A stretch of DNA of 35,391 nt from Treponema sp. (GTDB taxonomy: Bacteria; Spirochaetota; Spirochaetia; Treponematales; Breznakiellaceae). Location: NCBI GenBank assembly GCA_009786455.1, contig WQTD01000003.1, positions 12,882-48,272 on the forward strand, read 5' to 3'. Shown here one piece after another: positions 18,919 through 35,337 of this stretch (its first letter is position 1; every line of letters starts with the position of its first letter). The notes under the pieces were generated by a model. That model was not told the DNA's origin. It worked only from the letters and a program-made list of their open reading frames with translations, and searched no databases. The position numbers and the translations under genes are program-made.

Positions 18919-19157
18919 AGCGGCTGCCCGAAGGCAGACGCTCATACTCTTTGATTCATTATCAAAAAAACCTTACAGAGCGGCTGCCCGAAGGCAGACG
19001 CTCACGCTCTTTGATTCATTATCAAAAAACCCTACAGAGCGGCTGCCCGAAGGCAGACGCTCATACTCTTTGATTCATTATCAAAAAAACCTTACAGAGC
19101 GGCTGCCCGAAGGCAGACGCTCATACTCTTTGATTCATTATCAAAAAAACCTTACAG
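18919..19157. repeat. four-copy tandem repeat of a 60-bp unit between two tRNA genes
   Basis: Unit AGCGGCTGCCCGAAGGCAGACGCTCATACTCTTTGATTCATTATCAAAAAAACCTTACAG; copies at 18919-18978, 18979-19037 (59 bp variant), 19038-19097, 19098-19157. Copies 1, 3 and 4 read as identical. Confidence 0.97.
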
Positions 19158-19229
19158 AGCGGCTGATGGGAGTCGAACCCACGTCTCCAGCTTGGAAGGC
19201 TGGGGTAATAGCCGTTATACGACAGCCGC
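19158..19229 (-). tRNA. tRNA-Gly (anticodon UCC)
   Basis: Reverse complement GCGGCTGTCGTATAACGGCTATTACCCCAGCCTTCCAAGCTGGAGACGTGGGTTCGACTCCCATCAGCCGCT; acceptor GCGGCTG/CAGCCGC, discriminator U, anticodon stem CCAGC/GCTGG with loop CTTCCAA. CCA not encoded. Confidence 0.95.
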
Positions 19230-35037: not shown

Positions 35038-35337
35038 CTAAACGGTTTTCTTGGCTGCTGCTTTTTTTGCAGCGGGTTTCTTTGCAACGGCTTTCTTTAC
35101 CGTTGTCTTTGCAGCTGTTTTTTTCTTCGCAACGGCTTTCTTTGCCGTTGTTTTTGCAGCTGTTTTTTTCTTTGCAACGGTTTTCTTTGCAGCTGTTTTT
35201 TTCGTTGCAACTTTCTTTGCCGCGGCTTTTTTAACTGTTTTTTTCGCCGCAGTTTTCTTTGCAGCCGGTTTTTTCGCAGTGGTTTTCTTTGCCGCTGGTT
35301 TCTTCACCGCCGTTTTCTTCGCAGATGTTACTGCCAT
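35038..35337 (-). CDS. Lys/Ala/Pro-rich histone H1-like protein (start uncertain)
   Basis: [33 protein letters not shown]...KKTV; AGGGGGAC SD-like before ATG 35337; the frame stays open upstream to the window edge. Confidence 0.82.

Follow-up and report, generated by a model that had tools for sequence, protein, structure and literature searches.

On its minus strand, the window (the whole stretch of DNA analysed here, 35,391 nt) carries the genes for tRNA-Gly(TCC) and tRNA-Val(TAC), with a tandem array of four short units lying between them. The source genome amounts to 2.35 Mb in 85 contigs, with a completeness of 86%; because the 240-bp array consists of near-identical units, its copy number in such an assembly may be wrong. 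The features of the locus are the following:

19158..19229, minus strand: tRNA-Gly(TCC), from which the 3'-end copy derives (ARAGORN, Rfam RF00005)
18919..19157, minus strand: tandem array of four units resembling tRNA-linked repeats (TLR-like; TRF, unit decomposition)
19098..19157, minus strand: unit 1, 60 nt, adjoining tRNA-Gly
19038..19097, minus strand: unit 2, 60 nt
18979..19037, minus strand: unit 3, variant copy, 59 nt
18919..18978, minus strand: unit 4, 60 nt, adjoining tRNA-Val
18919..18942, minus strand: GC hairpin AGCGUCUGCCUUCGGGCAGCCGCU of unit 4, an acceptor-stem mimic, one in each unit (fold; R1 40.8 bits)
18919..18926, also 18979-18986, 19038-19045 and 19098-19105, minus strand: CAGCCGCT, repeating the final 8 nt of tRNA-Gly
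18947..18969, minus strand: AT hairpin of unit 4, 9 pairs, 5-nt loop
18837..18910, minus strand: tRNA-Val(TAC), bounding the spacer downstream (ARAGORN, Rfam RF00005)

The units are phased on the minus strand from the base just past the tRNA-Gly discriminator. TRF reports the repeat at 18919-19165 (period 60, 4.1 copies, score 466), the surplus 0.1 copy arising because the tRNA-Gly 3' end itself is counted in. The initial annotation had four 60-bp units filling the gap exactly; four copies are indeed found, with lengths of 60, 60, 59 and 60 nt, and 8 nt next to tRNA-Val (TAATTATA) are left unfilled. Units 1, 2 and 4 are identical, and the differences previously listed for a single deviating copy are all present in the 59-nt unit at 18979-19037, where they lengthen the AT stem (MFE -8.8 vs -4.8). 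The two hairpins described for each unit are likewise there: an AT-hairpin spacer is followed by a minimal hairpin, in which AGCGUCUG forms the 5' arm and, across a short loop, the final 8 nt of tRNA-Gly are copied as the 3' arm. This GC hairpin has a 9-pair stem with a single U.C mismatch mid-stem and a cUUCGg loop.

What the initial annotation overlooked is the copy of the tRNA 3' end, the feature that defines the class. In every unit the GC hairpin has as its 3' arm CAGCCGCT, the 8 nt with which the upstream tRNA-Gly ends; this sequence is found four times in the 239 nt, where 0.0035 occurrences are expected. It pairs with the 5' arm AGCGTCTG lying upstream of it, which occupies the place of the tRNA's own 5' acceptor strand GCGGCTG, so that the hairpin imitates the tRNA-Gly acceptor stem. 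CCA is not encoded in the tRNA-Gly gene, and GGA is absent from the unit. The fold of the two tRNAs with the spacer is far more stable than that of shuffled sequences (-156.2 vs -125.3 kcal/mol, z -6.25), a value of which a large share comes from repeat-to-repeat pairing. A scan of the window with Rfam returned tRNAs only, and no intrinsic terminator was found in the array, whose T run is set off by 8 nt from the GC hairpin. An attC or integron-like array was rejected, no GTTRRRY-type core being seen by eye. Elsewhere in the window, degenerate 15-75 bp repeats at 35041-35324 look by eye like a minus-strand coding repeat rich in Lys and Ala, and the same genome has, at G000:C4:54273-54334 (L044), an incomplete extra copy of tRNA-Val(CAC) behind the intact gene.

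Short arrays in related genomes

Relatives were searched with a 24-nt covariance model of the short-unit hairpin (R1). Across 40 genomes of the genus, strong matches lie almost exclusively at the tRNA-Gly(TCC) locus; about 18 of the 40 carry short units, 1-8 each, and none were found in the others, these genome counts being lower bounds since the MAGs are incomplete. Among 120 genomes of the family the model added one genome, from a different genus, in which the unit is likewise behind tRNA-Gly(TCC). No unit is present in the tRNA-Gly spacers of the sister genomes G022, G034 and G014, which were read directly. Copy number in relatives thus ranges from 0 to 8. Units in the spacers of sister species measure about 25-97 nt; they share a core formed by the hairpin AGCGTCTGCCTTCGGTCAGCCGCT and its close variants, and copy about 9-10 nt of the tRNA 3' end. 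In a scan of GTDB for exact patterns the array-bearing relatives are Treponema MAGs, apparently from termite guts to judge by their isolate names, and outside Treponema only isolated single matches were obtained. At one locus (L078, G035:C63) the 5' half of tRNA-Gly(TCC) is gone, and the 3' half is kept with one short unit.

In the spacer parts of the units, identity falls from 76% within a species to 51% between species, which indicates a concerted turnover of units; together with the 0 to 8 copies of relatives, this agrees with the recent amplification or homogenisation proposed initially. AT hairpins of differing sequence occur in most species (mean z -2.1 over 38 distinct spacers, 22 of them below -1.5), and since G008 and G020 have GC hairpins and almost no spacer hairpin, the AT hairpin is not required. 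The non-tRNA 5' arm AGCGTCTG, on the other hand, is nearly invariant although the spacers diverge, and this conserved arm appears to be the best sign of constraint. The core hairpin is kept among relatives, which leaves a tRNA precursor element or a structured small-RNA array, both proposed initially, as candidate roles. Its covariation is weak, most positions being invariant; the mid-stem position is unpaired in 17 of the 24 distinct GC hairpins.

The long element of the Treponematales

In G006, G018, G002 and G020 the tRNA-Gly spacer contains an element of ~146 nt that ends in the tRNA-Gly 3' end (copy of 17-20 nt where measured), and G006 and G020 have both forms, short next to long. In G027 the long element is behind tRNA-Gly(CCC) and bears the 3' end of that tRNA. 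With covariance models built from the long elements of sister species (R2 and R3), it was found in 37 of the 40 genus genomes, with up to 20 copies each; a covariance-model search of the order recovered it in 120 of 197 Treponematales genomes, belonging to 52 of 75 genera, and it is sparse elsewhere in the phylum (45/296 in all). The genome of the window has a single long element, behind tRNA-Ser(GGA) (G000:C22:34756-34908, L108); example loci in relatives are L082-L111 and L166-L224. Most of the long elements examined (74/85) lie behind a tRNA on the same strand, usually 53-65 nt from its end, and at least two others lie, by eye, behind an apparent tmRNA 3' end. Where a tRNA lies upstream (74 loci), 18-20 nt of its 3' end are copied in most cases. 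In the closing helix, the 5' strand is a match to the T-arm of the element's own tRNA: the longest exact match averages 11.7, compared with 5.9 for other tRNAs.

In 34 aligned sequences, 36 of the 44 pairs of the element have changed on both sides, and the observed covariation was reached by no shuffle; as the alignment was fitted to the structure, these pair counts lean towards it. Tandem long elements, at least four copies behind one tRNA with a spacing of ~185-205 bp, were observed at L113 (G032:C49), L213 (G065) and G401:C1:2259350-2260223. In 13 of 49 cases the flanking ~60 nt are partly repeated past the element, which makes insertion with target-site duplication possible, though not general. 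Neither the short arrays nor the long elements gave a credible Rfam match, lax thresholds included, and no earlier account of tRNA-linked repeats in spirochaetes was found in the open-licence literature. The long elements are more novel than the short array: they form a candidate new TLR family of spirochaetes, a large and apparently undescribed set of tRNA-linked repeats across the Treponema order.

GGA stands in two of the hairpin loops of the long element, in 89/93 and 83/95 copies within the genus and, outside it, in 24/24 and 19/23; the stems of these hairpins vary freely while the loops stay GGA. A frequent loop context is ACAGGAUGU, near the CsrA consensus. Several GGA motifs in hairpin loops, as in a CsrA-sequestering RNA of the CsrB/RsmZ/RrB type, are present in the long element and absent from the window array. 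At L120 and L136 (G032) large extra hairpins are inserted in both GGA-loop hairpins. A CsrA gene was detected in 109 of the 120 genomes that have the long element and in 55 of the 77 that lack it (Fisher p 0.0007, with ancestry ignored), a suggestive co-occurrence whose exceptions are mostly incomplete MAGs. In family f4, the listed genomes with no detectable CsrA gene (e.g. G044, G047, G050, G059) also have no long element and those with the element have CsrA, possibly owing to a single joint loss of both. Motif, structure and co-occurrence suggest that the long elements may bind CsrA. The scarcity of G-U pairs points the other way (2.2% vs 8.2% in tRNAs, one G-U-rich position set aside), and the apparent terminator seen by eye ahead of some long elements makes a role at the DNA level possible.

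Long element and window array are alike in occupying the same spacer in sister species, in the copy of the tRNA 3' end, in the antisense 5' strand and in their tandem habit; they differ in that the long form has a copy of 18-20 nt, follows many tRNAs at a distance of 53-65 nt and possesses a conserved core. Common descent of the two forms is a candidate reading only. A derivation of AGCGTCTG from the long element was rejected, the sequence being present in just 4/96.

Origin and possible role of the short array

Anatomy, confinement to tRNA-Gly(TCC), turnover of copy number, homogenisation within species and retention of hairpins are matters of observation. On balance it is probable that they reflect a short TLR-like tandem array, its hairpins retained, that is transcribed and cleaved with the tRNA precursor. 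The array would be transcribed as part of the tRNA-Gly/tRNA-Val precursor, and enzymes of the RNase Z type, which cut past the tRNA discriminator base and are proposed here because CCA is not encoded, could also cut after each copy, since each hairpin presents a tRNA-like 3' end. RNA 3' ends would then fall at the CAGCCGCU copies, and such cuts would set short hairpin RNAs free and trim the precursor. New units would come from unequal recombination or slippage between copies, the hairpin-forming sequence being kept and the array nonetheless being dispensable, as it is missing from many sister species. This explanation is favoured by the 3'-end copy in all units, by a locus and core hairpin common to about 18 of 40 genus genomes and a second genus, by the TLR-type long elements in the same spacer of sister species, and by the similar layout of the E. 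coli tyrT TLRs, with their antisense 5' strand and tandem units; the near-constant 5' arm, the AT hairpins that persist with differing sequences and the mapped 3' end of the E. coli RrB TLR also speak for the explanation. It is weakened by a tRNA copy of 8-10 nt instead of 18-19, by the two species whose spacers form almost no hairpin and by the weak covariation of the GC hairpin, and the several sister spacers with no array count against an important role.

The same weak covariation, the strong homogenisation and a copy number that varies down to zero would also be expected of a passive minisatellite, in which a tRNA 3' end was duplicated with a quasi-palindrome and multiplied by slippage, template switching sharpening the palindromes and the RNA having no role. 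This explanation is possible, if rather doubtful: template switching would erase the U.C mismatch that the 5' arm has kept over many species, and the core is conserved despite diverged spacers, also in the second genus. It is improbable that the units form a small-RNA array sponging a protein or RNA such as CsrA, as suggested for the long elements; CsrA-type GGA loops do occur in long elements of the same spacer, but the window unit is devoid of any GGA. The dispersed REP-like element that the initial annotation also considered, or a remnant of another mobile element, was rejected as very improbable. The GC-rich imperfect hairpin with its mid-stem mismatch recalls REPs, yet REP elements should be dispersed over many intergenic places, and here a single locus is occupied per genome, strong model matches in relatives sit behind tRNA-Gly(TCC), and beyond Treponema the GTDB-wide pattern gave only the isolated single matches. 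Viral contigs in IMG/VR contain no exact match to the sequence, and a phage-borne origin was rejected on the same ground.

Besides the processing of a TLR-like array with its precursor, a broader proposal may be advanced tentatively: the window array may be the shortest form of an order-wide spirochaete TLR system whose long forms, freed at a tRNA-like 3' end, would sequester CsrA. If true, the amount of CsrA sequestered would scale with tRNA transcription and so couple the CsrA network to growth rate. TLR-type arrays, short and long, in another phylum offer comparative material that E. coli by itself could not give; the short array illustrates how units copying a tRNA 3' end multiply and are homogenised in a tRNA operon, and the strong covariation and conserved CsrA-type loops of the long form make TLR function testable.

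Comparison with known repeats

TLRs were first found in E. coli in 1978 (Egan and Landy 1978, then Rudd 1999; reviewed in PMC8144298), where 22 are known at ten loci, and their defining trait is that they copy 18-19 bp from the 3' end of the tRNA or rRNA upstream (PMC8144298). The function of those in tRNA operons is not known, and in vitro binding of CsrA and Hfq has been reported for the three behind 5S rRNA (RrA/RrB/RrF). For the RrB TLR, mapping placed the 3' end 3 nt beyond the repeated sequence, and recognition by RNase E was proposed (PMC8144298). The window array resembles RrA/RrB/RrF in repeating the 3' end of the upstream gene and differs from them in having no GGA loop and in following a tRNA instead of 5S. 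RrB itself has a CAGGACG hairpin loop, also found in long Treponema elements, with a terminator ahead and no antisense strand comparable to that of the tyrT units. With REP/BIME sequences the array shares tandem GC-rich imperfect hairpins, but it is not dispersed.

The closest known kind is formed by the E. coli TLRs, e.g. the tyrT/tyrV rtT/RttR repeats (Rfam RF00391). GGGGAAGGAT, at the start of the tyrV-proximal units, is the reverse complement of ATCCTTCCCC, which belongs to the copied end of the tRNA; this antisense opening is 62 nt from the discriminator base, and 59 for the unit behind tyrT. Membership in the rtT family was rejected, as the RF00391 model matched 0/40 genus genomes and did match the E. 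coli control; homology of the long element to rtT is likewise not supported, R3 scoring a non-significant 6 bits on tyrT and RF00391 being unmatched. Like the E. coli TLRs, the window array lies directly downstream of a tRNA in an operon, between tRNA-Gly and tRNA-Val on the same strand, is tandem, with four units (up to eight in a relative) where TLR loci have 1-5, and ends in a copy of the tRNA's 3' end. Unlike them (178-nt unit, 18-19 nt copy), it has a 60-nt unit, lacks a multi-helix core and copies 8 nt (9-10 in relatives), so that it is called TLR-like and not a TLR; a copy of the defining length is found in the long element, at mostly 18-20 nt over 74 loci.
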